From: an uncultured Clostridia bacterium
Lineage (GTDB): Bacteria; Bacillota; Clostridia; TANB77; CAG-508
Direction: 5' to 3'
Length of the DNA: 32,489 nucleotides
NCBI GenBank assembly: GCA_944387535.1
Contig: CALXFI010000013.1
Coordinates: 1 to 32,489, forward strand
How positions within the stretch are numbered: position 1 is the first letter of the stretch; each line of letters begins with the position of its first letter. The notes below the pieces were generated by a model. It had not been told where the DNA came from and made no database searches. It was given only the letters and a program-made list of their open reading frames with translations. Below are positions 8,388 through 30,370 of this stretch, piece by piece. The position numbers and the translations under genes were made by a program.

Positions 8388-9972
8388 ATGTTAGTAGCAA
8401 ATAATGTTACCGTAAGATTTGGTAAAAGAGTATTATTTGAAGATGTAAATATAGCTTTTGGAAAAGGTAATTGCTATGGAATAATCCGGAGCAAATGGTG
8501 CTGGAAAATCTACATTTTTAAAAGTTCTTTCAGGAGAAATAGAGCCAAGTAAAGGTGATGTATCTATAGATAAGGGAGAAAGAATATCAGTATTAAAACA
8601 AGATCACTATGCATTTGAAGATTTTACAGTTATAGATACAGTAATCATGGGAAATAAAGAATTATATGATATAATGAAGAAAAAAGAAGAAATATATGCA
8701 AAACCAGATTTTTCAGAAGAAGACGGAATGGAAGCTGCAAAATTAGAAGAAAGATTTGCAGAACTAGATGGTTGGAACGCTGACTCAGATGCAGCAAAAC
8801 TTCTAAATGATTTAGGAATAGTTCCAGAAGATCATTATAAATACATGAGAGAAATAGAAGCAAAAGACAAAGTAAAAGTACTTTTAGCACAAAGTTTATT
8901 TGGAAATCCAGATGTATTATTACTAGATGAGCCAACAAACGACTTAGATGTAAAAAGTATAAATTGGTTACAAGACTTTCTAATAGACTTTGAAAACACA
9001 GTAATAGTTGTATCACATGATAGATATTTCTTAAATAAAGTATGTACTCATATTGCAGATGTAGACTTTGGGAAAATAAAAGTATATCCAGGAAACTACG
9101 ATTTCTGGTATGAATCAAGTCAACTTGCATTAAAACAAGCAAGAGAGCAAAATAAGAAAAAAGAAGAAAAGATAAAAGAATTACAAGACTTTATTGCTAG
9201 ATTTAGTGCTAATGCTTCAAAATCAAAGCAAGCTACATCAAGAAAGAAAACATTAGAAAAAATACAATTAGAAGAAATAAAGCCTTCTAATAGAAAATAT
9301 CCATACATAGATTTCAAACCAGATAGAGAGCCGGGAAAAGAAATATTACAAGTAAAAAATGTCTCTAAAACAATAGATGGAGTAAAATTATTAGATAACA
9401 TATCTTTTGATGTAAAAGAAGGAAATAAGATTGCAGTTTTAGCAGATAATGAACTTGTAAAAACAGTATTATTTCAAATAATTGCAGGAGAAGTAGAACC
9501 AGATGAAGGAGAAATCGTATGGGGAACTACAATAACAAATAGTTATTTCCCAAAAGATAATAACTACTTATTTGAAACAGACGAAAATGTTACAGAATGG
9601 CTAAGAAAATATTCAAAAGATCCAGATGAAACATATGTAAGAAGCTTTTTAGGCAGAATGTTATTCTCAGGAGATGAAGCATTAAAGAAGGTGAATGTTT
9701 TATCAGGAGGAGAAAAGGTAAGATGTGTATTATCAAAAATGATGCTATCAGGAGCAAACTTCTTAATATTTGATGAACCAACAAACCATTTAGATATGGA
9801 GAGTATAACATCATTAAATGAAGGCATGAAGAAATTTACAGGAAATATCATATTTACATCACATGACCATGAATTAACGCAAACTGTAGCAAATAGAATT
9901 ATTGATATAAAAGAAAGCGGAGAAGTAATAGATAGAGAAGTTACTTATAATGAATATTTAGGAGTTGAATAA
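8388..9972 (+). pseudogene. ABC-F ATPase (YbiT/YkpA type), frameshifted in the first Walker A
   Basis: The first 33 codons (from ATG 8388, SD AGGAGG 7 nt upstream) read MLVANNVTVRFGKRVLFEDV and on to GII. One extra C at 8486-8487 then breaks the frame. Removing it restores GANGAGKSTFLKVLSGEIEP and an unbroken 527-residue protein to 9972. ABC-F proteins are soluble twin ATPases that act on ribosomes. Visible motifs are LLLDEPTNDLD (first Walker B), the charged linker, LSGGEKVR (second signature), LIFDEPTNHLD and the YNEYL tail. The second Walker A is degenerate (ADNELVKT, no GxxGxGK), and the first signature is EIEAKDKVKV. The intact rest suggests a recent mutation or an assembly error rather than a decayed gene. 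Confidence 0.88.
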
Positions 9973-13168: not shown

Positions 13169-14260
13169 TTAATTATTGTTATAATCTTCATCTTCAATTC
13201 CTGTATACTTTTCTTGTATTTGTTTTATTTCGTCATAATGATTTTCTAATATACTTAAGAATAAATCATCTAAGTTAGGGTCAAATTGAGTTCCTCTATT
13301 TTTTCTAAATTCTTCTTTAATAACATCTAGAGGTAAAGAGTTACGGTAAGACCTCTTAGAACTCATAGCATCAAAGCTATCAGCGACAGCTGTAATTCTT
13401 GCTAAATAAGGAATATTTTCTCCTGCAAGCTTACTTGGATATCCTTTTCCATCATATCTTTCATGATGATGTTCAACTATTGGTAAAATATTTTGGAAAA
13501 TTTTTGCATGTGATAATATATGTACACCAATATTTGGGTGTTGTTTAATTTGAGAATATTCATCATCAGTAAGTTTAGATTCTTTTTGTAAAATAGAATC
13601 AGGAACACCAATTTTTCCAATATCATGGAACAAACCGCCTATTCTTAAGGTTTCTAAATCAGCATCTGGTAATCCTAGATATTTTCCAATTAAAACAGAA
13701 AATTCAGACACACGGTCAGAATGACCTCGCGTATATGTATCTTTTGCTTCAACTGTATAACGTAAGGTTTGAATACTCTCTAAATAAGCTTGCTCTAATT
13801 TTTCATATGTATCAGATAATTCTTCATTAATTTTTTTAATTTGGTTCATTTGTTCAATAGATTTTATACCAGATTCAATAAGTAATAGCAATTGATCAAA
13901 TTTATCACTTTTTTCACAGTAACCTTGAATGTCCAACCTTCTAATAGTTTCTAGTGGTGGAGCTAAGTCTTTGTGACCTGTAAGCAATAATATATACAAA
14001 TCTTTATTGAATTTTCTTATTTCCTCAACTACTTGATCACCATGAATAGGTGTCATAATAAAGTCTAATATCATAAGGTCAAAGTGTTCATTTCTTACTC
14101 TTTCAATTGCTTCTAGTGGATCTGTTATTCCTACAAAATTATAGCCAGACCTTTTTAAGAAAATAGATAAAGAATCAATAATTCCTTGTTCATCATCGAC
14201 AGCTATAATTTTATAATTCTGATTTTCATTATTTTCTAAATTCTGCAATCCTTTTCTCAT
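13169..14260 (-). CDS. Response regulator with HD-GYP domain (putative c-di-GMP phosphodiesterase)
   Basis: A 363-residue protein. The receiver domain is at about 15-130, with the acidic pair D22-D23, phosphoacceptor D66 in LMILDFIM, and conserved Lys in YCEKSDK. A coiled linker is at about 135-165. The HD-GYP domain is at about 170-340, with HDIGKIGVP (HD 212-213) and the full HHERYDGKGYP signature (265-275). HD-GYP proteins hydrolyse cyclic di-GMP, or cGAMP-type dinucleotides in some lineages; all key residues are present, so activity is likely. ATG at 14260 fits SD GAGGT; the TTG at 14272 lies before the SD. It follows the histidine kinase on the same strand with a hairpin in the 122-nt gap, and they are probably partners. 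Confidence 0.93.
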   Translation of the reverse strand: MRKGLQNLENNENQNYKIIAVDDEQGIIDSLSIFLKRSGYNFVGITDPLEAIERVRNEHFDLMILDFIMTPIHGDQVVEEIRKFNKDLYILLLTGHKDLAPPLETIRRLDIQGYCEKSDKFDQLLLLIESGIKSIEQMNQIKKINEELSDTYEKLEQAYLESIQTLRYTVEAKDTYTRGHSDRVSEFSVLIGKYLGLPDADLETLRIGGLFHDIGKIGVPDSILQKESKLTDDEYSQIKQHPNIGVHILSHAKIFQNILPIVEHHHERYDGKGYPSKLAGENIPYLARITAVADSFDAMSSKRSYRNSLPLDVIKEEFRKNRGTQFDPNLDDLFLSILENHYDEIKQIQEKYTGIEDEDYNNN

Positions 14261-14318
14261 TTTATACCTCAAACATATGTAATATTTTTTATAATTATAT
14301 TAATAAAAAAAATAAAAA

Positions 14319-14382: not shown

Positions 14383-16182
14383 TTACAAAGGTAATATTAT
14401 AGTAAATGTGGTACCTTTACCAACTTCAGATTCAAAAGTAATATCTCCACCAAAGTGAGCTTTTATAGTAGAATAAGACATATAAAGACCAAGTCCTGTA
14501 CCATTTTTCCCCTTAGTTGTAACCATTTCTTTAAATAACTTATCCTTAACCTTTTTAGGTAAACCGCAGCCATAATCTTTCACAGAAATATATAGTTTAT
14601 TATCTTTTTTATTGACAATTAAATCAATATTTTGTTCAGTCTTTCCTTGATATGCTTGTATAGAATTTGCTATCATATTATTAATTACTTGAACTAAGCT
14701 ATTTACATCTCCGTGTAAGGTTGTATGTTCAGGTACATTTATAGATACGTTTAAATAAATTAATGCACTCTTTAATTCATGTTTCATTAGGATATCAACA
14801 CGTTTAACCAATTCTTCTATATCGAAATTAGTATCTTCAGCCTCTGACATTGTAACTGCTTGACCTTTTACAACAGTAATAATATCTGACATATAACTTG
14901 TATATTGCCTTATTTTATCAATCCACTCCATCATATCTTTTGCAATGTCGTGATGGTCTTGAGAGTTTACTTCTGGATCATCAATTGAAGAATCATATTC
15001 TTTGATTAAATCAGATAGCCCTTCAGTTGCTCCAGCTATAGACATAATAGGTGTTTTTAAGTTATGAGCAATACCTCCAATTAATTGTCCTAGAGAAGCT
15101 AAACGTTCACTTTCCATAAGCATATCTTGATTATCTTTAATTTTCTTTATATCTAAAACGTGTTGAGTGATATCTTTAAACAAAACCAAAACACCTATAA
15201 ATACCTTATTATTAAATAATGGACTAATTTCAACAATAAAATATTTATTAGCCTTTGTGTCATAATATTCTATCCTATATGTTTTCTTATCTTTTATAGA
15301 TTTATAAAAAGTAGCTTCAAAATTATCTAAATTTTTAGATGAATGTAGTAATTCAAAAATAGTCTTTTTACGTATATCTAAATCTTGAAGCTTAAATGTT
15401 CTTTTAAATGTATCATTATAATCTACAATATTATTGTTGGCATCTAAAACTAAATAACTATCTGACATTACATTGACAATCTTTTGAAGTGCTATTGGTG
15501 ATATGCTTAAGAAGTTTAATTTTAGTATTGCAAAAGCATAAAATAGCATGGCAACAACAAATGAAATAGGTGTTAAATATACGCTCATTTCAACTAATTT
15601 CAAGGTACCTAAAAAATTTATAACAATAGGAATAATAGTACCTAAAATAATCAAAATAGATTGTCTTGAAAATATACCAGATGTCTTTAAAGATGTTTGT
15701 ATTAGCATAAACATACTTATAAATAATAAAGCATAAGTATAAACAGAATGTACATAGAAATAAGGTCCTACAATACCTTGATCTATTCTAGGAGAAAATT
15801 TTACGAAGAATAGATGATGCCAAGGGTTTGTCCATAATACTAATAAAGAAATTACTGGTATTATAAATAAAAGTAAATAAACTTTTTGAAATTTTATTTT
15901 TGTATTTTTAAAAATTAAGGCAGTAAAAAATACCGCAACAGGTAAAAGACAAGTACCTATATAAATAAAATACTCAAAATCCATAGGGTCAATATCATAG
16001 TAACTGCATAGTATATCTTGTAAAGATACACCAAATGATATAATAAAAACACATATAAGCATTGCTAAAAAACTTTTTTGCAATTGAGCAAGAGGTCTTT
16101 TAGATAATACATAAAAAATAAGAAATACAATTGATAAAGTAGAAATAATCAAACAAGTAAGTGGTAAATTTATAGTATTCAT
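14383..16182 (-). CDS. Membrane sensor histidine kinase (7TM-PAS-HisKA-HATPase)
   Basis: A 599-residue protein. Residues about 1-225 form seven hydrophobic segments of the histidine-kinase N-terminal 7TM sensor type. A PAS domain at about 235-350 includes SYLVLDANNNIVDYNDTFKR. The dimerisation/phosphoacceptor region has GQLIGGIAHNLKTP with His at about 371. The ATPase domain at about 460-599 has NNMIANSIQAY (N box), DYGCGLP (G1) and GTGLGLYMS (G2). It should autophosphorylate in response to a membrane-associated or intracellular signal and pass phosphate to the HD-GYP regulator downstream. SD GGAGG lies 8 nt before the ATG. It starts 106 nt after the NRPS stop on the same strand, so it could be co-transcribed with the NRPS or have its own promoter in the dyad-rich gap. 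Confidence 0.93.
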   Translation of the reverse strand: MNTINLPLTCLIISTLSIVFLIFYVLSKRPLAQLQKSFLAMLICVFIISFGVSLQDILCSYYDIDPMDFEYFIYIGTCLLPVAVFFTALIFKNTKIKFQKVYLLLFIIPVISLLVLWTNPWHHLFFVKFSPRIDQGIVGPYFYVHSVYTYALLFISMFMLIQTSLKTSGIFSRQSILIILGTIIPIVINFLGTLKLVEMSVYLTPISFVVAMLFYAFAILKLNFLSISPIALQKIVNVMSDSYLVLDANNNIVDYNDTFKRTFKLQDLDIRKKTIFELLHSSKNLDNFEATFYKSIKDKKTYRIEYYDTKANKYFIVEISPLFNNKVFIGVLVLFKDITQHVLDIKKIKDNQDMLMESERLASLGQLIGGIAHNLKTPIMSIAGATEGLSDLIKEYDSSIDDPEVNSQDHHDIAKDMMEWIDKIRQYTSYMSDIITVVKGQAVTMSEAEDTNFDIEELVKRVDILMKHELKSALIYLNVSINVPEHTTLHGDVNSLVQVINNMIANSIQAYQGKTEQNIDLIVNKKDNKLYISVKDYGCGLPKKVKDKLFKEMVTTKGKNGTGLGLYMSYSTIKAHFGGDITFESEVGKGTTFTIILPL

Positions 16183-16288: not shown

Positions 16289-19200
16289 CTATTTAAAGAA
16301 TTCAATCTTCTTAAAATAATTAATATATTTAATTAGATAATTTTTGTCAATTTCTTTCCAATAAAAACCAATATGATTTAGATATTTTTCTGTAAAACTA
16401 CAATCTAATTTAATTCTAGAAGTATAAATTAATTGTTTATCTTTATTTAAATCATGTATAATTCCAGAAAGAAGACCTTTTTTATTATCATCTTTTAATA
16501 ATTCATTTATAATATTGCTCATTTCATCATTAGAGACTGGTAATAATTTGTAACCCATATCATTTAAAGTATCTATAAGTAATTTGATAGGTAATAATTT
16601 TGTATCATAAATATGAAATACATTACAAGGGCTAGTGTAGTTAGCAATTTTTATTATAGCATTTGCGCATAAATCTACAGGAGTTAATTCAATTTCATGC
16701 TTAAAAGAGTAATCAGGAAATGCACCTATATTAATAAATGATTGTAATCTTTTTGCAAAAGCATTTTCCTCCACATTTCTTTGGAATTTGCCATCTGAAT
16801 ATCTATTGGTTATATTACCAATTCTAACAATTTGTGCGTTTAATCCATCTAAAATTGCTTCTAATACAATTCTTTCTGCTTCAAATTTGGTTATTGTATA
16901 AACATTATTTAATTTTTGTTTTATATATAAATCTCTTTCAGAAAATACAATTTTATCATTGATATTTTCTGGTGTTTCAACTACAGTTTCCTCTCTTTCA
17001 CCATTTCCAGAAATACTTATTGTTGAGACATGAATTAGCCTTTTTTTGAAAGACTTACAAATTTGAACGACATTATAAGTTCCTTCAACATTTATTTTTT
17101 CAAATAATTCTCTTTGGCCAAAATGCTTAACAATTGCACCAGAATTTATAACAGTTGTTACATTATTTTTTATAACATCTAGAGCTTCATCAGAAAGTCC
17201 AATATTTGGTTTAGAAATATCACCTTCTAATACATGTATTCTTTGTTTATATTTTTGGTAAAAACCATCTCCAAAGTAGTAAATAAGGGTATTTCTTAAT
17301 CTTTCACGAGGAATCATATTATCTTTTTGCCTAATAAGACAATAAATATCTCCATCATTATTCTTCAAAAATGAATATATTAAATGTGAACCCAAATAAC
17401 CGGTAACACCAATTAATAAAACATTTCCTATATCAACCTTTTCTATATTAGTTATATTTTCAATTGTATTTTTTGATAATAGATTATTTATTTTACTATA
17501 ATCATAAGCTTCTAATTTGCTTTCAGGTTTATAAGAGATTTTAGAAGCTAAATCTCTTATAGTAGGAAAATTAAATATATCAGCATATTCAAAATTAAAT
17601 CCTTCTTTTAAAGCCTCTATTTGCATATTAATAGCTAAAATAGAATCTCCACCTATATCAAAGAAATTGTCATCAATAGAGATAGAATTATTATGTAAAA
17701 GTTTTGACCATATATTTAATAATTTTTTCTCTTTAGCATTTAACTTTTCTTGTTTTATAGGAGTAGTAGTGTTGTTTAAATCAGGTAAAGGTAAAGCTTT
17801 TCTATCTATTTTCCTATTTATAGTATAAGGCATTTCTTTAAGCTTAATAAAATAAGTTGGAACCATATAATTAGGAAGAGATTTTCTTAAAAAGTCTCTT
17901 ACTTTATTTTCAGGGATATTTACATCTTTATCACAAACATAATATCCGCATAAAAATTCTCTTGATTCAAGTTCTACTTTGTTAACAACAGAAGCGGTTA
18001 TTCCTTTGATGCTTTCCATCTTTGATTCTATTTCGCCAAGTTCTATTCTTAATCCACGTAGTTTTACCTGATTATCAATTCTACCAAGACATTGTACTTT
18101 TCCATCAAAAGTCCATCTACCAATATCACCAGATTTATACATTTTCCCTTCACCAAATGGATTATCTAAAAATCTTTCTTTAGTCATTTCTGGTTTATTT
18201 AGGTAACCTAAACCAACTTGAATTCCAGAAATATATATTTCTCCGACAACTCCAATAGGTAATCTATTACCATTTTTATCTAATATATGTATTTTAGTGT
18301 TCATAATAGGTGGTCCTATTGTAATTTTATCTTCACCATTTAAATTTTGTACATTTGATAAAACTGTTATTTCGCTAGGACCGTAAATGTTATAAATGGT
18401 AACGCCAGGAGAAAGTTCTCTTAAATCTTTTACAAATTTTTCTGGTAATGGTTCTCCACCAAAAACCATATGTTTAATATTAGATAAGCCGGAAGGATTT
18501 AATCTATTATCATAGTTGATTTTCATAAGGCTAGGAGTTACAGTCATAACGTCAGCACCGTATTTTTTTATCAAAGCATCTAATAATATTGGATTTCTAT
18601 GCTCTGCGTTATTTGCAAGTAATACTTTCATACCATGAGTTAATGATACAAAAATTTCATATACAAATATGTCAAAAGGCGTTGAGGTAACTGATGCTAT
18701 ACAGTGTTTGTTTCCTTCTTTTAAATAGTCAAGAACTAAGGTCATAGCTTTAACCATATTAGCAAAACCAACTTGATGTAATAAAACACCCTTTGGTACG
18801 CCTGTAGAGCCAGAAGTATATATTACGTAAGATAAATCAAAAGGATCTACTTTAACATTTGGATTATCAAAATTTCTATTATATAAGTCATTATCAAGGT
18901 CTACTTCTATAATATTATTTGTGTTTTCAATTTTATCCCTTAAAGCTCTTTGTACAAGAACATATTGAGCTTTACTGTTTTCTAAATAATACTTAGTTCT
19001 GTCTTGTGGATAAGTAGGGTCCAAATTTAGAAAAGCAGCACCAGCTTTTAAAATTCCAAACATACTAACAATTGTTTCTAAAGAACGATTAGCCATAATA
19101 GCTACAATATCGTTAGGTTTAACACCGATATTAATCAAATGATGAGCTAAACTATTAGCTTTTTTGTTTAATTCAGAATATGTAAGTGTTTTATTGTCAC

Positions 19201-22200
19201 AAATCACAGCTACATTATTTTCATTTTGCTTAACCACGTTTTCAAAAATAGAAACTACAGTATCATCATTAATTTCACCATCAGTGTTATTGTAAAGTGA
19301 TAATAACATGTCTTCTTTTTTGGTGATAATATTTATATCATCTAAAGAAGTAGATAAATTGCTAGTTAAGTTTTCTAGTAAAAACATATAATGTTCAAAA
19401 ATACTTTTAATTGTTTCTTCATTAAACAAATCAGTATTATATTCAAAGTTAATTCCATAAGTACTTGGGTCAATTTCAATATTTAAATTGAATTTTGCAT
19501 ATGATATTTTAGAAGCAATAGTTTTTATTTTATTACCAGTTAATGATTTATTGTTATTTTCATTTTGATAAGAAAATACAACATCAAATAAAGAACTATT
19601 TGCAGGTATTTTTAAGTCTTTTACTAACATATCATATGGATAAGGTTGATTAGATAATGAGTCTAATACTAATGATTTTACCTTATTTAAAAATTCTTCT
19701 AATTTAATTTTACCATCAATACTTATATTTAAAGCAACATTATTTACAAACATACCAATCATGTTTTTTAATTGAGATGAATATCGTGCTTCTATTGGAG
19801 AACCAACGATAATGTTTTCTTGACCAGTATATCTATATAATAGAACATATAAAATTGATAGGAAGATCATATAATTAGACATACCATATTTTTTCGCTAA
19901 TGTTGAAACTGAGTCAAATAGATTTTGTGGTATTTTGTAATAAACTTTATTACCATTATATGATTTTTTGTCACCAGGCTGATTATCATATGGCAAGTTT
20001 ATAATAGGTATTTCATAATTTTTAAATCTCTTATTCCAGTAATTTTTAACAGGTAAAATATTTTCGCTATTTAAATAATCATTTTCCCATACAGAATAAT
20101 CTTTATATTCAATATCTGAGTCTTCAATGTTTTTACCATTATATAAATCATAAAATTCAGAAATTAAAATATTTAAAGATGTTCCATCCATTATTATATG
20201 ATGTGTATCTATTAGTATTAGAGAAGAATTATTAATATAATGCAATTCAACTCTAAGTAAAGGTGCAAAATCTAAATCAAAAGCTTTTGGAAAATTATTT
20301 ACAATAGTTTGTATATCACTATCTAATACAATTCCATCATCATAAAATTTAACTTTGATTTTACAACTATCTAAAACAAATTGCTTAACTTCTCCATTAG
20401 AAGTTGAAAAATAAGTTCTAAAAACACTATTTTTTTCAATAATCTTGTTAAATATATTTTCTACTGTTTTAACATCTAAAAGTTTATCTATAATAATTCC
20501 ACCACTAATATTGTATAAAAGAGAAGAGCTAGCCATTTTTGAAGCATAATATATTCTCTTTTGGGCAGATGACAAAGGATAATTAGCCTCTTTAGATGTT
20601 TTAGGAATATTATAAATATTAAAATCTGTACTTTTTTGTTTATCTAAAAATAGAGCTAATTTTGAAATTGTATTATGTTTAAATAAATTAGTTACAGTTA
20701 AATTAATTTTAAATTCATAATATATATCTAAAGAAAGTCTAATAGCTAACAAGGAATCCATTCCTAGTTCAAAAAAGTCATCATATATAGAAACATTATC
20801 TAGATTTAGTAATGAACATATCATATTATGTAATTTAATCTCAGTTAATGTTGAAGGTTTAACATAAGTTATTGGTTTTATATCTATATAAGGTAGATTT
20901 TTTCTGTCTATTTTTCCATTAGGAGTAAGTGGCAATTTATCTAGCACTATTATATGATTAGGAATCATGTAATAAGGCAATAAATCAGATAATTGATGTT
21001 TTATATAATCAGGTGTAATCATAGAGCTAGATGTTGCAACATAGGAACAAATAGCAGGCACATCATTTATCTTTTTAAAGATAGTAACTGAGTTTGTAAC
21101 ATCTTCTATATTTTTAATTGTATTATTAATTTCATTTAATTCAACTCTGTGACCACGATATTTTATTTGAGAGTCATTTCTTCCAATAAAAGATATAAAT
21201 CCTGCTTTATCCCAAAAACCTATATCTCCAGTTTTATAAATCAAACTACTTGATAAAGAAGAGATATGTACAAATGATTTTTTTGTCATTTCAGGATTAT
21301 TTAAATATCCTTTTGAAACACTTGCACCAGTAATACAGATTTCTCCAGGAAGGCCAACTGGTTGTAAATTATTTAAAAAGTTCAATATATAAATATTGTT
21401 ATTTTTTAAAGGATATCCAATTGGTACTGTAGAATTTTCTTTAGTATAATGATAAACGTAAAAAGTAGAGCATATTGTAGCCTCAGAAGGCCCATATCCG
21501 TTAACAATTTCTATATCTTTATTCAACTCATAGAAATGATTCAAAGTAGAATTTTTAATTGTTTCTACACCAACAGATAATTTATTAATTGTAAAATTCC
21601 TGTTATTAATTTTTACAAAGTTATAAATATCATCTAATATATTAGGTGGTATAAAAGAAAATGTTATATTATGTTCTTCTAAAATATCAATTAACAAAGG
21701 AATATTTGTTAAAGTATTTTTTGGATATAGCACTAAAGTAGCTCCAAAACATAAAGGTGTAAATAATTCCTGAACACTTGCATCAAAAGATATGTTAGCT
21801 ACAGATAAACAATTATCTTCATGGCTAAACTTATTTTCAAAACAATCATTTAAATTATAAATAAAATTAATTAAATTAGAATGTGTTATAGGAACACCTT
21901 TAGGTTTTCCAGTAGAGCCAGATGTATAGATAACATAACAAAAGTCATCTGGTGAAATTGATATATTTAAGTTGTTGTTATCAAAAGACTCTAAATCAAT
22001 TTTTTTAGGGGTTACAGTAGTTATATTTTCTATTTCTATATCTTTATCTGTTACCAATATTTTAGAATTACTATCGCTTAAAATATAAGTTACTCTTTCT
22101 ATTGGATAATCTGGGTGCATAGGTAAATAAGCTCCGCCAATTTTTTGAATTGCTAAAATAGATATAATAAACCAGTCAGACTTATTCATATAAACACCGA

Positions 22201-23728
22201 CAATATCTTTTGCTTTCGCACCTTTAGATAGTAGATATCTTGCAAATCTATTTACAATGTCATTTAACTCTGCATATGTATATACTTTATCTTTATAAAT
22301 CAAAGCATTTTCATTTGGATATTTAATAACCATATCTTCAAAAAGTTTGATTATATTAGAATCAAGAGGACATGCTAAAGTACGATTATTAAATTCATTT
22401 AAGATTTGAGATTTTTCTTTATCTGTAATACACTCAATATCTTTTATAAGAATAGAGTTATTAGACAAAACCTCAGAAATAATCTTTAAAATACGTAAAT
22501 GCCAAGAGTTAACTTCTTCTTTAGAATATTTATCAATTAAATAATCATAATCAACTCTCAAAGTACCTGTATCATTAAGGTCATATAAATTAATTGCAAC
22601 TTCATCAATAGCTGTTCCATTAAAAGCCCAATTAGTTTCATAACTATTAGCATCTTCAGAAGCTCTTGTGATTTGATAAGACACAGAAATATTGTATAAG
22701 TTAGAGATAGAATCGTTTTGTTTTCTTATATCTTCAACAATACTACCATAAGAGTATTTCTGATGTCTAAAAATAGACATTATATCAACTGTATTTTTTG
22801 TAGCAAAATCTAAAAATGAAACATCAGGTACTACATGTGCACGGAAAGGAATTGTAGATATAAACATACCAGTAGAATTCTTTTCCCTAAAATTAGTTCT
22901 ATTTAAAATTGGTGATCCAATAGCGAAGTCATCTGTATTAGTTGAATTGGCAACAAAAATGGATATTATAGACATAAAGAAAGAATATACTGATAATTTA
23001 TTAGTTTTACAGTATTCATTAATTTTGTTCATCATATTTTGGTCAATATGGTAAGTGTCTCTTGTTGCCTGACGAGAAGAAGTTAAATTGTTTGATTTCC
23101 TACTTATAGAAGGAATAGAAACAACATTAGAAAAGTCAGATAAATAACTTTCCCAAAATTCTTTATCTTTTTGACATTTGTTACTATTACTATAATTTTC
23201 TGAAGAATTTATGAAATCTACATAAGAAAATGTAGGAGAATCATATTCAGTATTATTAAGTAATGAGTGATATATTTTAACAATTTCTGTTATTGTAATT
23301 CCTTGAGACCAAGAGTCAGAAATAATATGATGGATATTTAATACTACTGCTACATATCCATTTGGAAATAAAGCTAATTTAAATTTAAAAAGAGGCGAAT
23401 TTAATAAAGTAAATTTCTCTTTTACCATAGAATTTTCTAAATTTCTAAAATCTTCCATAGAAGAAACATTAACAACCTCGATATCAAAAGGTTGATAATC
23501 AACAAAATATTGTACCGGAACACCATTTTCAAGTGTCAATTGAATTCTAAAGCTATCATTTTTGCTAACTAATATATTTATAGCTTTTTTTAGTAAATCA
23601 ATATTAATATTTTCCTTAATAAGTCCAGAGCCACAAATATTACAAATATTGGTGTCAGAATAATAAACTTCCATATTCCAAATATTTTTTTGTGGGTTGG
23701 TTAAACCATAAACATCCTTTTTTAACAT
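16289..23728 (-). CDS. Dimodular NRPS, C-A-T-C-A-T-R (predicted peptide aldehyde synthetase)
   Basis: A 2479-residue single-chain assembly line. C1 is at about 5-430 (HHIISDS at 133-139; the usual DG is DS). A1 is about 460-950 (YTSGSTGKPKG about 602; NGYGPSE; KIDRK). T1 is about 960-1030 (Ppant Ser in LGMDSLLAI). C2 is about 1045-1480 (canonical HHIIMDG about 1180). A2 is about 1500-2000 (YTSGSTGVPKG about 1640). T2 is about 2005-2075 (IGGDSILAI). The terminal thioester reductase is about 2105-2479 (GVTGYLGSHL; YTITK). A C domain on the first module implies an acylated first residue, and the R domain implies NAD(P)H-dependent release as an aldehyde or alcohol. No PPTase lies in the window. 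ATG 23728 fits AGGTG 6 nt upstream; the GTG at 23737 is less likely. It has a consensus promoter and is divergent from an acyl ligase. Substrates are not known. Confidence 0.96.
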   Translation of the reverse strand: MLKKDVYGLTNPQKNIWNMEVYYSDTNICNICGSGLIKENINIDLLKKAINILVSKNDSFRIQLTLENGVPVQYFVDYQPFDIEVVNVSSMEDFRNLENSMVKEKFTLLNSPLFKFKLALFPNGYVAVVLNIHHIISDSWSQGITITEIVKIYHSLLNNTEYDSPTFSYVDFINSSENYSNSNKCQKDKEFWESYLSDFSNVVSIPSISRKSNNLTSSRQATRDTYHIDQNMMNKINEYCKTNKLSVYSFFMSIISIFVANSTNTDDFAIGSPILNRTNFREKNSTGMFISTIPFRAHVVPDVSFLDFATKNTVDIMSIFRHQKYSYGSIVEDIRKQNDSISNLYNISVSYQITRASEDANSYETNWAFNGTAIDEVAINLYDLNDTGTLRVDYDYLIDKYSKEEVNSWHLRILKIISEVLSNNSILIKDIECITDKEKSQILNEFNNRTLACPLDSNIIKLFEDMVIKYPNENALIYKDKVYTYAELNDIVNRFARYLLSKGAKAKDIVGVYMNKSDWFIISILAIQKIGGAYLPMHPDYPIERVTYILSDSNSKILVTDKDIEIENITTVTPKKIDLESFDNNNLNISISPDDFCYVIYTSGSTGKPKGVPITHSNLINFIYNLNDCFENKFSHEDNCLSVANISFDASVQELFTPLCFGATLVLYPKNTLTNIPLLIDILEEHNITFSFIPPNILDDIYNFVKINNRNFTINKLSVGVETIKNSTLNHFYELNKDIEIVNGYGPSEATICSTFYVYHYTKENSTVPIGYPLKNNNIYILNFLNNLQPVGLPGEICITGASVSKGYLNNPEMTKKSFVHISSLSSSLIYKTGDIGFWDKAGFISFIGRNDSQIKYRGHRVELNEINNTIKNIEDVTNSVTIFKKINDVPAICSYVATSSSMITPDYIKHQLSDLLPYYMIPNHIIVLDKLPLTPNGKIDRKNLPYIDIKPITYVKPSTLTEIKLHNMICSLLNLDNVSIYDDFFELGMDSLLAIRLSLDIYYEFKINLTVTNLFKHNTISKLALFLDKQKSTDFNIYNIPKTSKEANYPLSSAQKRIYYASKMASSSLLYNISGGIIIDKLLDVKTVENIFNKIIEKNSVFRTYFSTSNGEVKQFVLDSCKIKVKFYDDGIVLDSDIQTIVNNFPKAFDLDFAPLLRVELHYINNSSLILIDTHHIIMDGTSLNILISEFYDLYNGKNIEDSDIEYKDYSVWENDYLNSENILPVKNYWNKRFKNYEIPIINLPYDNQPGDKKSYNGNKVYYKIPQNLFDSVSTLAKKYGMSNYMIFLSILYVLLYRYTGQENIIVGSPIEARYSSQLKNMIGMFVNNVALNISIDGKIKLEEFLNKVKSLVLDSLSNQPYPYDMLVKDLKIPANSSLFDVVFSYQNENNNKSLTGNKIKTIASKISYAKFNLNIEIDPSTYGINFEYNTDLFNEETIKSIFEHYMFLLENLTSNLSTSLDDINIITKKEDMLLSLYNNTDGEINDDTVVSIFENVVKQNENNVAVICDNKTLTYSELNKKANSLAHHLINIGVKPNDIVAIMANRSLETIVSMFGILKAGAAFLNLDPTYPQDRTKYYLENSKAQYVLVQRALRDKIENTNNIIEVDLDNDLYNRNFDNPNVKVDPFDLSYVIYTSGSTGVPKGVLLHQVGFANMVKAMTLVLDYLKEGNKHCIASVTSTPFDIFVYEIFVSLTHGMKVLLANNAEHRNPILLDALIKKYGADVMTVTPSLMKINYDNRLNPSGLSNIKHMVFGGEPLPEKFVKDLRELSPGVTIYNIYGPSEITVLSNVQNLNGEDKITIGPPIMNTKIHILDKNGNRLPIGVVGEIYISGIQVGLGYLNKPEMTKERFLDNPFGEGKMYKSGDIGRWTFDGKVQCLGRIDNQVKLRGLRIELGEIESKMESIKGITASVVNKVELESREFLCGYYVCDKDVNIPENKVRDFLRKSLPNYMVPTYFIKLKEMPYTINRKIDRKALPLPDLNNTTTPIKQEKLNAKEKKLLNIWSKLLHNNSISIDDNFFDIGGDSILAINMQIEALKEGFNFEYADIFNFPTIRDLASKISYKPESKLEAYDYSKINNLLSKNTIENITNIEKVDIGNVLLIGVTGYLGSHLIYSFLKNNDGDIYCLIRQKDNMIPRERLRNTLIYYFGDGFYQKYKQRIHVLEGDISKPNIGLSDEALDVIKNNVTTVINSGAIVKHFGQRELFEKINVEGTYNVVQICKSFKKRLIHVSTISISGNGEREETVVETPENINDKIVFSERDLYIKQKLNNVYTITKFEAERIVLEAILDGLNAQIVRIGNITNRYSDGKFQRNVEENAFAKRLQSFINIGAFPDYSFKHEIELTPVDLCANAIIKIANYTSPCNVFHIYDTKLLPIKLLIDTLNDMGYKLLPVSNDEMSNIINELLKDDNKKGLLSGIIHDLNKDKQLIYTSRIKLDCSFTEKYLNHIGFYWKEIDKNYLIKYINYFKKIEFFK

Positions 23729-23766
23729 ATTTCTCACCTACATTAAAAATATTTTAATCTAGAAAA

Positions 23767-23893: not shown

Positions 23894-23919
23894 ATTGCAA
23901 TTAAAAGGAGGTAATGCAT

Positions 23920-25647
23920 GTGAAAAATGGTAGAGCAAGAAAAGTGTATAAACCTGAGATAATAGAAAATTATAGAGAACTACTAGATAGAGTTACTTCA
24001 AAATATAAAAATAATGTGGCTTATAAATATAAGAAAAAGCCATCAGATACCGAAGTAATAGAAAAAACATATGAAGAGTACATAAGTGATGTAAAAGCTT
24101 TATCTACAAGTTTGTTAGAGTTAGGATACGAAAGAAAAAAGATAGCTTTAATTGGAAATAATAGATATGAATGGTGTACAACATATATGGCTGTAACTAC
24201 TGGAAATATGATAATAGTTCCAATTGATAAAGCATTACCTGAAAATGAAATTGAAAATTTGATTACAAGAAGCGGAGCAGAAGTAGTCTTTTTTGATAAA
24301 AAATATAATGACGTTATGTTAAAGTTAAAAAAAGATAAAAATAATAATGTTAATACTTTAATTTCAATGGATAATGAAAATATAAAAGAAATAGAAAAAT
24401 ATAATGAACTTTTAAAAACAGGATACAAATTATTAGAAAGTGGAAGTACTAAATACGAAGATATAAAAATAGATTCTGAAAAAATGTCAATATTGTTATT
24501 TACTTCAGGTACTACAAGTACTCCAAAGGGAGTAATGTTGTCTCAAAAAAATATTTGTAGTAATTTATCAGATTTTTCGTCTTGGGTAAAAATATATCCA
24601 AAAGATATTTTGTTGTCTTTTTTACCAATACATCATACATTTGAGTGTACTATAACATTTCTTTATGGTATGTATAGTGGAGCAACAGTTGCATTTTGTG
24701 ATGGACTAAAATACATACAAAAAAATATGAAAGAATATAAAGTTTCAATATTAGTAGCTGTACCACTAGTGTTAGAAACAATGTATAAAAAAATACAAAA
24801 AGGAATAAAAGAACAGAAGAAAGAAGATTTAATAAAAAAAGTTACTAAGATTTCTAATATTTTATTAAAATGCCATATTGATTTAAGAAGAAAATTCTTT
24901 AAACAAATATTAGATAATTTTGGAGGAAACTTAAGAGTTGTATTATATGGAGCAGCTCCTATGAATAAGGATACAATAATTGGATTTAATAATATGGGAG
25001 TTGAGTTAGTACAAGGTTATGGCTTAACAGAAACATCACCAGTAATTGCAGCAGAAACAGATAAGGAAAAAAGACCAGGCTCAGTAGGTTTAGTTTTCGA
25101 TGACTTAGAAGTAAAAATAGATAATCCTGATAAAGATGGAGTAGGGGAAATTTTAGTTAAAGGTCCAAGTGTAATGATGGGCTATTATGAAAACGAAAAA
25201 GCAACAAAAGATGCTTTTAATGATGGATGGTTTAAAACAGGAGATTATGGATATTTTGATAAAGATGAATTTTTATATGTTACAGGAAGGAAAAAAGATA
25301 TTATTGTTTTAAGAAATGGTAAAAATGTTTATCCAGAAGAAATAGAAGTATTAATTAATAAAATTCCTTATGTGAAAGAAAGCTTAGTATATCAAAGAGA
25401 ACAAAGTGCTACAGATACAATGCTTTGCGCTAAAATTGTTTATGATAAAGACACAATAGAAAATATTTTAGGGAAGAAATCAGAAAAAGAGTATAAAGAA
25501 GATATATGGAAAGAAATTAAGAAAATAAATAAAAACTTACCAGTATTCAAACATATAAAGAAAATTGAGATAACAACACAAGAATTTGCAAAAACTACTA
25601 CTCAAAAAGTTAAAAGATATAAAGAATTAGAAAAAGTAAGTAAATAA
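23920..25647 (+). CDS. Long-chain acyl-CoA/acyl-AMP ligase (AMP-binding enzyme)
   Basis: A 575-residue ANL-superfamily adenylate-forming enzyme. The P-loop LLFTSGTTSTPKGVMLSQ is at about 190-208, YGLTETSPV at about 366, FKTGDYG at about 435, GRKKDIIVLRNGKNVYPEEIE-type hinge sequence at about 452-472, and the catalytic Lys region TTTQKVKRYKE at the end. It activates a carboxylic acid, probably a medium or long fatty acid, as acyl-AMP and then as a thioester. There is no fused carrier domain. GTG at 23920 is 8 nt from the SD AGGAGG; the in-frame ATG at 23914 is only 2 nt from it. It is divergent from the NRPS across 191 bp, which suggests (inference) that it may load the starter acyl group. Housekeeping fatty-acid activation is the alternative. 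Confidence 0.9.
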   Translation: MKNGRARKVYKPEIIENYRELLDRVTSKYKNNVAYKYKKKPSDTEVIEKTYEEYISDVKALSTSLLELGYERKKIALIGNNRYEWCTTYMAVTTGNMIIVPIDKALPENEIENLITRSGAEVVFFDKKYNDVMLKLKKDKNNNVNTLISMDNENIKEIEKYNELLKTGYKLLESGSTKYEDIKIDSEKMSILLFTSGTTSTPKGVMLSQKNICSNLSDFSSWVKIYPKDILLSFLPIHHTFECTITFLYGMYSGATVAFCDGLKYIQKNMKEYKVSILVAVPLVLETMYKKIQKGIKEQKKEDLIKKVTKISNILLKCHIDLRRKFFKQILDNFGGNLRVVLYGAAPMNKDTIIGFNNMGVELVQGYGLTETSPVIAAETDKEKRPGSVGLVFDDLEVKIDNPDKDGVGEILVKGPSVMMGYYENEKATKDAFNDGWFKTGDYGYFDKDEFLYVTGRKKDIIVLRNGKNVYPEEIEVLINKIPYVKESLVYQREQSATDTMLCAKIVYDKDTIENILGKKSEKEYKEDIWKEIKKINKNLPVFKHIKKIEITTQEFAKTTTQKVKRYKELEKVSK

Positions 25648-25689: not shown

Positions 25690-25748
25690 CTTTTAAAAAA
25701 TGGTTTAAAAATGGAAAATACGGAAACAATATTTTTGAGGTGGAATAT

Positions 25749-26885
25749 TTGGGAAGAAGAAAGAAAAATAAATCAAAAAAAATAATATTTGTTTCTATTT
25801 TTTTTATATTTATCTGGATATTTGGATTTTATTTATATACTACATATCAAAATATAGAAATAAATGAAAGCAACTATACAGCTGAAAGGCAATTATCCAC
25901 AAAGACTGAACAAACTGTGGAAAGTGTAGAAGAAAATAGCACAACAGTTGCAGATATGCTAGAAGAAACAACTAAAAAAGTAGTTGGAATATCAAAATTA
26001 AAAAATGCGGGAAGTAGTATTTTTTCAAGTAGTGAAGAAAGCGATTTAGGATTAGGTACAGGTTTTATAGTAACATCTGATGGCTATATTTTAAGTAATA
26101 GCCATGTGACGGGAGAAAAATATAGTAAGTGCTATGTAACATTAGAAAATGGAACGAACTATGATGGAACAGTAGCTTGGAGCGATACAGATTTGGACCT
26201 TTCTATTGTAAAAATAAATGCAAAAGATTTACCATATGTATTTTTAGGAGATTCAAATTCCATTAGAGTGGGGGAAACAGTTTATGCAATTGGAAATCCA
26301 ATAGGATTTGAATTTAGAAGAACAGTAACATCCGGAATTGTTAGTGCAAAAAACAGAACAATAAAAATAGATGAAGAAGATAAATCATCTTATATGACAG
26401 ACTTAATTCAAACAGATGCAACAATAAACCCTGGAAATAGTGGAGGACCTTTAATTTCCCCAAATGGAGATGTTATTGCAATAAATACTGTAAAAATATC
26501 AACAGCAGAAGGGATTGGTTTTGCAATACCAATTAATATAGTAAAACCAATAATAGAAAGTTTTAGAAAAACTGGAAATTTCGAAGAAGCAACAATAGGA
26601 ATTTATGCTTATGATAAAGAAGTAGTGCCATATTTAAATTCGGGTTATAATTCAATTAACTTTAATACAGGTATATATGTTGCACAAATTACTCCAAATG
26701 GTCCAGCAGATAATACAGAGTTAAAAGAGGGAGATATTATTACAAGTATTGATGGAAAAGAATTAAATACAATGAATGATTTGAGAGAATATATTTATAC
26801 TAAAAAGCCAAATGATGAAGTAACATTAAAAGTTACAAGAGGAAAGATAAATAAAGAAATAAAATTAGTATTGGGGAAAAAATAA
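25749..26885 (+). CDS. HtrA/DegP-type serine protease with PDZ domain
   Basis: A 378-residue protein. After a basic start (GRRKKNKSKK) comes one membrane helix at about 11-32, which anchors it in the membrane. An extracellular trypsin-like domain follows with SNSHVTG (His about 120), TDLDLSIVKI (Asp about 150) and NPGNSGGPL (Ser about 230). A C-terminal PDZ domain is at about 285-375 (ITPNGPADNTELKEGDIITS). It should degrade or refold damaged exported proteins. TTG at 25749 sits 8 nt after the SD GAGG; the GTG at 25740 overlaps that SD and is less likely. It is separated from the acyl ligase by a terminator. Confidence 0.94.
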   Translation: MGRRKKNKSKKIIFVSIFFIFIWIFGFYLYTTYQNIEINESNYTAERQLSTKTEQTVESVEENSTTVADMLEETTKKVVGISKLKNAGSSIFSSSEESDLGLGTGFIVTSDGYILSNSHVTGEKYSKCYVTLENGTNYDGTVAWSDTDLDLSIVKINAKDLPYVFLGDSNSIRVGETVYAIGNPIGFEFRRTVTSGIVSAKNRTIKIDEEDKSSYMTDLIQTDATINPGNSGGPLISPNGDVIAINTVKISTAEGIGFAIPINIVKPIIESFRKTGNFEEATIGIYAYDKEVVPYLNSGYNSINFNTGIYVAQITPNGPADNTELKEGDIITSIDGKELNTMNDLREYIYTKKPNDEVTLKVTRGKINKEIKLVLGKK

Positions 26886-28584: not shown

Positions 28585-30319
28585 ATGTTGAAAAAAATAT
28601 TAAGAATTTTTTTAATATTTGTATTCTTTTTACTTATTATTGGTATTTCTAAAAATGTAGAAGCAAATTCAATAAGTAAGATTTCAATGGATATATATGT
28701 TGATAATAATGGAGATGCTACTATTAATGAGGTCTGGAATTGTAGGGCTGATAGTGGAACTGAAGTTTATCATCCATATTATAATTTAGGAAAATCAGAG
28801 ATAGAAAATCTAGAAGTAAGTGAAAATGGAAGAAAATATCAAACATTATCATCATGGAATACAAGTGGAAGTTTATCTACAAAAGCATATAAATGTGGAA
28901 TAAATAAAATTAGTAACGGAGTTGAACTATGTTGGGGCATTAGCCAATATGGTTCACATACATATAATGTAAAATATACAATAAGTAATTTTATAGCAAA
29001 TTTAACTGATTCACAAATGATTTATTGGACATTTATACCATATGATTTTTCTGATCCAATAGGAAGTGCTTACATAAAAGTCCATACGAACTTTAATATA
29101 CCAGATTCTGTTGATGTATGGGGATATGGTAATTATGGTGGAACAGCATATGTATATGATGGATATATAGAAATGCAATCTGCTGGCAGGTTAGATAAAG
29201 ATGAATATATGACAATGCTAGTAAAATTTCCAAGTGGTACATTTAATACATCTAACACAATAAATCATGATTTTAATTATTATTATAATATGGCAGAAGA
29301 AGGCTCTGTAAAATATAATGAAAAGCCTACAAGTTTTGGAGAAGTTGTTATAAAAATATTAAGTGCTTTAATAAATTTAATTCCACTTATAATAGTTTGG
29401 ATAGTATTCTTTTTATCAATAAAAAGATTTAAAGACAGTGGGGCATCTAAATTAAATTTTGGAGTAGGAGGCAAAGAAATACCAAAAGATGTACCATATT
29501 ACAGAGATATACCTTGTAATAAAGATATTTTTAGAGCGTATTACATAGGATATAATTATACTTTATTAAAAAATAAAACTGACCTTTTAGGAGCAATTAT
29601 ATTAAAATGGCTTAAAGATTCTGTTATTAGAATAGAGAAAAAAGAAGAAGGAATATTTAAAAAGGAAAATATTTTAATTTATTTAAATGAAACAATGCCA
29701 GAAACTTCTATTAAAAATAATACAGAAAGAAAATTATTTGATATGCTTTATGAAGCAAGTAAAGATGGAGTATTGGAAAATAAGGAGTTTGAAAAATGGT
29801 GTAATAAGAGCTATTCTAAAATATTAAAATGGTTTGATGATATTTTAAAAGAACAAAGAGATTTATTAGTACAAGAAGGGAAAATTACAGTTCAAGAAAA
29901 AACTACTTTAAAAGTTTTTAAAAGTAAAGTTTATACAGCAACTCACGAGTTAAAAGAAGAAGCAATACAATTAGAAGGATTAAAGAGATTTTTAAAAGAA
30001 TATACTCTTATAAAGGATAGAGAACCAATTGAAGTAACTCTATTTGAAGAATATCTAATATATGCACAAATGTTAGGAGTTGCCAAAGAAGTTGCTAAAG
30101 AATTTAAAGAAGTTTATCCTAAGATTATAGAAGAATCTAAATTTACTTCTTATGATAATATTATTCTTATAAATATGTATGCGTCACATAATATTGCAAT
30201 AGCAAAGAGTGCAGAAAGTAGAGCAAGAAGCTATTCATCTGGTGGAGGAGGCTTTTCATCAGGTGGAGGCGGAGGCGGTTCCTTCGGCGGAGGAGGAGGC
30301 CGGAGGAGGTTTCCGTTAA
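28585..30319 (+). pseudogene. DUF2207 membrane protein, frameshifted at its Gly-rich C-terminus
   Basis: The signal peptide is at about 1-27 (KILRIFLIFVFFLLIIGISK, then VEANS). An extracellular DUF2207 domain is at about 28-240, a membrane helix at about 263-285 (LINLIPLIIVWIVFFLSI), and a cytoplasmic helical part at about 290-545. The Ser/Gly-rich tail should end GGGGGFR-stop. One extra C at 30300-30301 shifts the frame so that reading continues about 97 codons into antisense aspS. Removing it gives a stop at 30317-30319, just before the terminator, and a 577-residue protein. The function of DUF2207 is unknown; it is an integral membrane family common in Firmicutes. ATG 28585 or TTG 28588 may be the start, and the latter fits the SD spacing better. 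Confidence 0.88.
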
Positions 30320-30341
30320 TAAAAAATATGACAATAATAAA

Positions 30342-30366
30342 AGAGAGTTCAAAAAATGAACTCTCT
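30342..30366. terminator. Bidirectional terminator
   Basis: Perfect 9-bp hairpin AGAGAGTTC/GAACTCTCT with loop AAAAAAT, between convergent DUF2207 and aspS. Confidence 0.8.
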
Positions 30367-30370
30367 AATT

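Follow-up and report, generated by a model that had tools for sequence, protein, structure and literature searches.

A reductase-terminated nonribosomal peptide synthetase of uncultured Clostridia and the sensor half of its neighboring kinase as a candidate exchangeable signaling cassette

The window, that is, the whole stretch of DNA analyzed here, comprises 32,489 nucleotides from an uncultured Clostridia bacterium and carries a nonribosomal peptide synthetase (NRPS) gene on its minus strand (16289..23728). The frame is open for 2482 codons from a GTG at 23737, but because the Shine-Dalgarno sequence AGGTGAG directly precedes the ATG at 23728, this ATG, which gives a protein of 2479 aa, is the better start. 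A reading made from the sequence alone (the sequence-only reading) had chosen the same start and had described one polypeptide in the order C-A-T-C-A-T-R with intact carrier serines, an HHIIMDG motif in the second condensation domain, and GxTGxxG and YxxxK motifs in the reductase domain. All of these were confirmed by motif reading and by a Pfam scan, which gave two Condensation, two AMP-binding, two PP-binding, and one NAD_binding_4 match. The domains, all on the minus strand, are C1 (22403..23728), a probable acyl-starter condensation domain with the motif HHIISDS (Pfam, motifs, C-domain tree, and PDB profile scores); A1 (20888..22372; Pfam), with the specificity residues DAQFSGGIC; the carrier T1 (20633..20872; Pfam and the motif GMDSLLAI); the condensation domain C2 (19298..20593; Pfam, motif, and PDB profile scores); A2 (17783..19267; Pfam), with the specificity residues DIYTVGIVL; the carrier T2 (17528..17752; Pfam and the motif GGDSILAI); and the reductase R (16292..17437; Pfam, the motifs GVTGYLG and YTITK, and the PDB relatives 6vtj and 4f6l). 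Amino acid assignment was abandoned for A1 and A2, as their residues gave no confident substrate; the codes of some relatives fit those that we take to specify Val, Thr, Gly, and Asn. Taken by itself, the NRPS adds a new member to the reductase-terminated NRPSs of gut bacteria, a class that is already known.

Two further genes, on which the sequence-only reading was silent, follow the NRPS on the same strand. The first encodes a sensor histidine kinase of 599 aa (14383..16182; Pfam) of the type designated HKa, which begins 106 nt past the NRPS stop and has its own Shine-Dalgarno sequence, GGAGG. It consists of a sensor half with HisKA_7TM and PAS domains (15127..16182) and a conserved core with HisKA and HATPase domains (14386..15126), the domains being assigned by Pfam and the border by the comparison of sister loci described below. 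The second encodes a response regulator of REC-HD-GYP type (13169..14272; ORF list, Pfam, and the motifs HDIGK and HHERYDGKGYP), in which the Pfam scan found no DNA-binding domain. With a kinase gene and an HD-GYP gene behind it, the probable role of the NRPS shifts toward signaling. For comparison, we used the window and 40 relatives, a non-random pick from the 86 NRPS-bearing genomes of the genus (match below 1e-50). The regulator was in view at 35 of these 41 loci, mostly but not always adjoining the kinase, with HDxGK in 35/35 and the GYP pattern in 34/35, and GGDEF proteins occurred in 97/97 genus genomes.

Divergent from the NRPS, on the plus strand, lies an acyl-CoA synthetase-like (ACS) gene (23914..25647; Pfam), a possible acyl supplier found near the NRPS in 12 of the 41 loci. 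It is followed on the same strand by a gene for an HtrA-like protease (25740..26885; Pfam), syntenic in 36/41 loci. Membership of HtrA in the system was not supported, because HtrA stays where the NRPS is absent (L142-L144), and the protease is probably outside the system. Farther along, a DUF2207 frame (28585-30609, plus strand) overruns a glycine-rich tail and extends ~239 bp antisense into AspS (30371-32131, minus strand); the tail may contain a frame slip. An ABC-F frame (8647-9972, plus strand) encodes 441 aa versus 527 aa in L142, L143, and L144, and its start may be missing or lie in another frame.

The sequence-only reading had also pointed out that the window holds no phosphopantetheinyl transferase (PPTase), and none was seen by eye among its ORFs or in the six proteins scanned with Pfam. 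The organism's own assembly (1.55 Mb, 74.6% complete) contained one PF01648 match, a 137-aa frame of AcpS size. Among the 97 genus genomes, 88 had a PF01648 match and 86 had exactly one, mostly in frames of 121-170 aa, and this search returned no Sfp-type PPTase in the own assembly or in the 97 genomes. Given one AcpS-size PPTase per genome, a single enzyme presumably primes the carriers of both fatty-acid synthesis and the NRPS.

The window protein was matched at E<=0.001 in 90 of the 97 genus genomes, several of which had full-length matches at 40-82% identity. The own assembly held one NRPS match among the matches listed (3 of 7 first-look candidates scored) and a single R-domain match (4/4 candidates scored). 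A kinase of the same family lies behind the NRPS in 41/41 genus loci, with a gap of at most 35 nt in 32 of them. In a sample of 195 genomes from 39 genera of the family, read from listings of 150 rows each, the kinase was found on the same strand within 2.5 kb downstream in 136 of the 142 listed genomes with an R domain. Beyond the family, in 34 genomes of the order picked for having the kinase, adjacency was seen by eye in 28 of the 31 with an R domain. Upstream sequence was available for 76 of 80 kinase-matched named contigs, which are all HKa by ranking and overlap the genus set (e.g., L063 and G087:C14, both of 53,621 bases) and so are not independent of it; NRPS domains were present there in 76/76 (59 complete two-module, 1 one-module, 2 three-or-more-module, and 14 that were cut, split, or odd). 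These named relatives are genomes of uncultured organisms, and since the titles of some mention rabbit, goat, chicken, or wild mouse, the organism of the window is probably gut-dwelling.

The NRPS and the kinase are also absent together. Eleven of the 97 genus genomes had no NRPS match below 1e-50 in a first search that scored only the three best candidates per genome, and the identical 11 had no kinase match below 1e-20; 4 of the remaining 86 had no kinase match. When the search was repeated with all candidates scored, the R domain was absent from the 11 NRPS-less genomes and was not found in G018, G026, G035, and G067 either. Among these four, a full kinase match occurred only in G067, and G035 had a remnant of the kinase core fused to a regulator. 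In G028, which had no kinase match, the contig terminates inside the kinase frame. In G014, two NRPS frames of 1889 and 598 aa (L150, 8769-16218) had no kinase nearby; an efflux-like gene was seen by eye upstream of them. Three of six NRPS-less genomes examined (G017, G092, and G078) had HtrA, regulator, and Tex contiguous, with NRPS and kinase missing; such empty sites are found at L142-L144. The other three (G023, G077, and G032) had kept a regulator-like protein minus its receiver part. HD-GYP proteins that match the regulator minus its receiver part lie at L145 (9569-10258) and L146 (9596-10279), in genomes without NRPS and kinase.

The NRPSs of the genus occur in a two-module form (~2480 aa) and a one-module C-A-T-R form (~1400 aa). 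All 25 two-module loci, in one of which the NRPS is split into two frames, had the 7TM/PAS kinase HKa, and 15 of the 16 one-module loci had a kinase designated HKb, the exception being L050 (HKa). HKb has the same core as HKa and an unlike sensor, in which hydrophobic segments and an outer loop were seen by eye and HAMP matches fell below the Pfam cut-off. Family-wide, a match from the kinase start was classed as HKa and a core-only match in a long frame as HKb-like; outside the 41 genus loci, HKb-like is thus a class by size, and the comparison of sensors covers these 41 loci. Among intact NRPSs of the family, an HKb-like kinase accompanied one module in 43/43 cases, and HKa accompanied two modules in 53 cases, three modules in 3 cases, and one module in 6 cases; in one of these one-module cases, HKa comes second in a kinase tandem that HKb opens. 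These family counts omit rows with broken NRPSs (20 HKa, 6 HKb-like, and 2 truncated), 11 kinases with no R domain next to them, and 3 truncated kinases that adjoin one-module enzymes; three kinases first classed as truncated beside two-module NRPSs proved to be HKa whose sequence is divided between two frames. Outside the family, core-only kinases accompanied one module in 11/11 cases by eye, so that a core-only kinase stood only beside one-module enzymes in 54/54 intact cases (43 in the family and 11 elsewhere). In family f5, HKa-like kinases accompanied one module (8) or two (6) by eye; the counts for other families omit G305, G309, and G317, in which kinase and R are not adjacent in the usual order, and G323, which has a partial kinase. 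Eight genera (g1, g2, g10, g19, g21, g32, g34, and g39, by eye) have both an HKa pair with two or three modules and an HKb-like pair with one. A strict one-to-one correspondence of sensor type with module number is ruled out by the HKa/one-module loci L050, L106, and L149 and is also broken by G209, G174, G234, G156, G223, and 8 of the 14 cases in f5.

Several loci departed from the common layout. The split HKa kinases, in which sensor and core occupy different frames downstream of a two-module NRPS, lie at L165 (2413-4231), L166 (9181-11017), and L167 (2257-4093), two in genus g8 and one in g38. Tandem kinases behind one NRPS were found at L173 (2091-6041; HKb then HKa) and L174 (2004-5798; HKa twice). 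NRPSs of three or more modules stand beside HKa at L168, L169, L170, L117, and L133. At L136, upstream of 10001, an NRPS frame of 1291 aa was read as A-C-T-C-T; R was not found in it, and an HKa kinase adjoins. At L149 (14418-19901), a frame of at least 1828 aa diverges from the NRPS, with a condensation-like start by eye and no match to the domains of the window; it is possibly a second assembly-line gene.

In a tree of the flanking proteins Tex and HtrA, built by a quick method from 37 of the 41 loci (L036, L037, L044, and L052 had no usable Tex or HtrA), the NRPS architecture changed 10 times, at least 5 of which were forced by starred branches, versus 11.9 times with shuffled labels. Its clustering on the tree was no greater than in ~1 in 6 shuffles (89/500). 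The sensor type changed 9 times on the same tree and tracked the architecture in 5/5 independent starred-branch pairs (p 0.0625) under nearly all ways of choosing the pairs. Between the close sisters L041 and L060, the flanking proteins and the regulator are 88-97% identical and the kinase core 86%, versus 24% for the sensor, 38% for C1, and 39% for R. The outer border of the replaced block lies beyond the called start of ACS, by 3 nt in L041 and by 52 nt in L060, and the inner border coincides with the sensor/core border within the kinase gene. An identical inner border was found between L048 and both L029 and L030.

Distances were compared by partial Mantel tests, which are liberal, in 24 two-module and 16 one-module loci; L061 was dropped, and L050 was kept in the one-module set in spite of its HKa kinase. 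Given Tex, the sensor correlated with the NRPS at r=0.90 in the two-module set and 0.96 in the one-module set. The core correlated with Tex at 0.67 and 0.77, respectively, and the sensor with Tex at 0.32 in both sets. Within the two-module set, the correlation of the sensor with C1, which lies ~6 kb away, was 0.74, compared with 0.42 for the core. When R was held constant in this set, the sensor correlated with C1 (0.58), A1 (0.55), and C2 (0.48), weakly with the core (0.20), and not with A2 (0.07, p 0.15); the values in the one-module set were 0.29 for C1 and 0.41 for A1. The A-domain specificity residues of the 16 one-module loci correlated with the sensor at r=0.81 (0.79 given Tex) and also with the core, Tex, and HtrA at about 0.5 each, and in 12 of these loci the locus with the nearest sensor had residues differing at two positions or fewer. 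Counting against a matched signal, the A1 residues of the window differ from those of L022 and L023 although the sensors are 78% alike. These results indicate that the sensor half and the NRPS diverge and are exchanged together and that the core, the regulator, and the flanks follow the species.

The main rival to a signaling role, which we regard as unlikely, is that this pattern reflects linkage only, the kinase sensing something else or regulating the operon and the block being swapped whole. The NRPS and kinase genes do adjoin; however, they are missing jointly while the regulator often remains. Unrelated middle sequences force crossovers into the conserved flanks, so that borders must sit there whenever alleles are too dissimilar for crossovers within the block, and linkage would also accommodate an A2 that contributes nothing once R is constant. 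By contrast, the distant C1 tracks the sensor better than the adjoining core does, also given R, which speaks against linkage alone, and the sensor size class matches the module number across genera.

As to the product, C1 stands at the start of the polypeptide in 41/41 loci. The last position of its motif is A or S in 39 of the 40 domains read (L061 was left out), with L035 alone having G, and L025 and L059 carry N instead of the first H. In a tree of 64 C domains (FastTree, with a long-branch warning; the split NRPS of L061 was excluded), the C2 domains formed one side of a branch with a support of 100; on the opposite side, the C1 domains of one-module enzymes were intermingled with those of two-module enzymes. 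The C1 and C2 profiles scored 118 and 86 bits, respectively, against PDB 7c1k and 73 and 51 bits against 4jn3, both of which we take to be starter condensation domains. The scores were 190 versus 459 bits for 2jgp and 132 versus 308 bits for 6mfz, both of elongation type, and nearly level for 8f7h (134 versus 137 bits). The top PDB match for C1 is still 2jgp, and the overall profile picture is mixed. The first position in every polypeptide, the C1/C2 split in the tree, and the one-module enzymes, which offer C1 no other partner to condense with, favor C1 as a starter domain.

The sequence-only reading had predicted an N-acyl dipeptide aldehyde. Its basis, an NRPS that is a single protein beginning with a C domain and ending in a reductase, stood, and from this architecture the acyl group and the aldehyde can be fairly inferred but not read off directly. 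An N-acyl dipeptide aldehyde is the likely product of the window NRPS, with probable release as an aldehyde rather than an alcohol, and the one-module relatives would make N-acyl amino aldehydes. We see only a slim chance that C1 has no activity or fails to load an acyl group, such that a free dipeptide aldehyde would form and cyclize to a pyrazinone, as with AusA. The departure of C1 from HHxxxDG at the last position, the N in place of the first H in two relatives, and a best PDB match other than a starter would fit such a loss; however, C1 is retained with its own conserved motif throughout the genus, it is the sole C domain of the one-module enzymes, and 12 loci have the ACS gene near the NRPS.

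The most economical reading is a private signaling system in which the synthase and the receptor half move as a unit. We put a probability of roughly 0.6 on the proposal that the NRPS makes a signal that is sensed by the neighbor kinase and feeds c-di-GMP turnover. C1-A1-T1 would join an acyl donor to the first amino acid, C2-A2-T2 would add the second, and R would release the chain by reduction. The membrane kinase behind the NRPS would sense the product through its 7TM/PAS half and pass phosphate to the REC-HD-GYP regulator, altering c-di-GMP breakdown, with c-di-GMP hydrolysis as the expected output. The synthase and the sensor half would form an exchangeable specificity cassette, and the kinase core, regulator, and flanking genes a common chassis. 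Because the Pfam scan gave no DNA-binding domain for the regulator, the kinase more likely reads the product than switches NRPS transcription. The acyl starter, the aldehyde, exit from the cell, ligand binding, phosphotransfer, and the c-di-GMP output are all steps that we infer from sequence. We give even odds to the broader proposal that uncultured bacteria of an entire order, many of them from animal guts, use as pheromones the N-acyl amino or (di)peptide aldehydes that their NRPSs make. Each synthase and its kinase sensor half would form a matched pair, a pherotype cassette exchanged between species on a fixed chassis of kinase core and HD-GYP regulator.

It is improbable, in our view, that the product is chiefly a protease inhibitor or another bioactive directed at the host or competitors, with the two-component system reporting need or effects. 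The accessible text of PMC12327764 and PMC10039858 describes dipeptide aldehydes of the gut as inhibitors of proteases, and the HtrA-like protease adjoins in 36 of the 41 loci; but HtrA persists without the NRPS (L142-L144), and a sensor half that is exchanged along with the NRPS would be unexpected if the stimulus were independent of the structure of the product. Making protease inhibitors has so far been the main role ascribed to the gut dipeptide-aldehyde NRPSs. Should the product prove to be a pheromone whose receptor is genetically linked, what the class does physiologically could be tested directly, and the present system would supply receptors for compounds hitherto regarded as protease inhibitors.

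The enzyme class, a variable sensor beside signal genes, and NRPS-made autoinducers are each already known from the sources available to us. AusA, the aureusimine NRPS of Staphylococcus, has related A, T, C, and R domains (R structure 4f6l, 184 bits) in the order A-T-C-A-T-R and is not known to have an N-terminal C domain. The window NRPS starts with a C domain and scored 1406 bits with the NCBIfam AusA model versus a cut-off of 2500, and on these grounds an AusA-like pyrazinone NRPS was rejected. Reductase-terminated NRPSs of gut bacteria that give dipeptide aldehydes and pyrazinones (Guo 2017, via PMC12327764) and the ruminopeptin system of Ruminococcus bromii (Schneider and Balskus 2018, via PMC12327764), compared by their description in that source, share with the window a two-module NRPS, reductive release, gut Clostridia-type hosts, and the dipeptide aldehyde class. 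Unlike in that description, genes for a kinase and an HD-GYP regulator come after the window NRPS, and enzymes of one, two, or three modules occupy the same kind of locus. In the accessible text of PMC2812497, mru0068 of Methanobrevibacter ruminantium and swol1094 of Syntrophomonas are likewise C-first two-module enzymes with signaling genes alongside, and an N-acyl product is suggested; their neighbors differ, being serine phosphatases, an anti-sigma factor antagonist, and MatE. That text gives a terminal thioesterase, and the legend of its Figure S8 a thioester reductase domain. Pvf of Pseudomonas, like the system proposed here, has an NRPS-made autoinducer, which needs the N-oxygenase PvfB; as far as the accessible part of PMC10194917 goes, its receptor is unknown and no linked kinase is described. 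A PvfB-like diiron N-oxygenase was found neither in the six Pfam-scanned proteins of the window nor by eye in its other ORFs.

Agr is a pherotype locus of the same kind as ComQXPA. In ComQXPA of Bacillus, according to the accessible text of PMC4008528, the signal genes stand beside the kinase ComP, in which the membrane sensor half is variable and the cytoplasmic half conserved. As far as these descriptions go, the window system resembles ComQXPA and Agr in a sensor half that varies with the synthase, a conserved core, and specificity groups, and differs in having an NRPS and an HD-GYP regulator in place of a ribosomal peptide signal and the DNA-binding regulator ComA. By eye, no ribosomal pre-peptide or processing enzyme was recognized in the ORF lists, which cover the larger frames. 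Among the literature matches listed, in which many subscription papers were out of reach, no title or abstract start describes an NRPS-kinase-HD-GYP operon; nor does any of these matches, with subscription papers thinly covered, pair an NRPS synthase with a kinase sensor that is exchangeable. If the reading of a signaling cassette is true, the synthase predicts the ligand of the receptor, and the at least 136 NRPS-kinase pairs in the 195 sampled family genomes are a natural specificity data set. The known forms of bacterial communication would then also gain a pherotype system based on an NRPS and coupled to c-di-GMP, the assembly-line counterpart of ComQXP/Agr.
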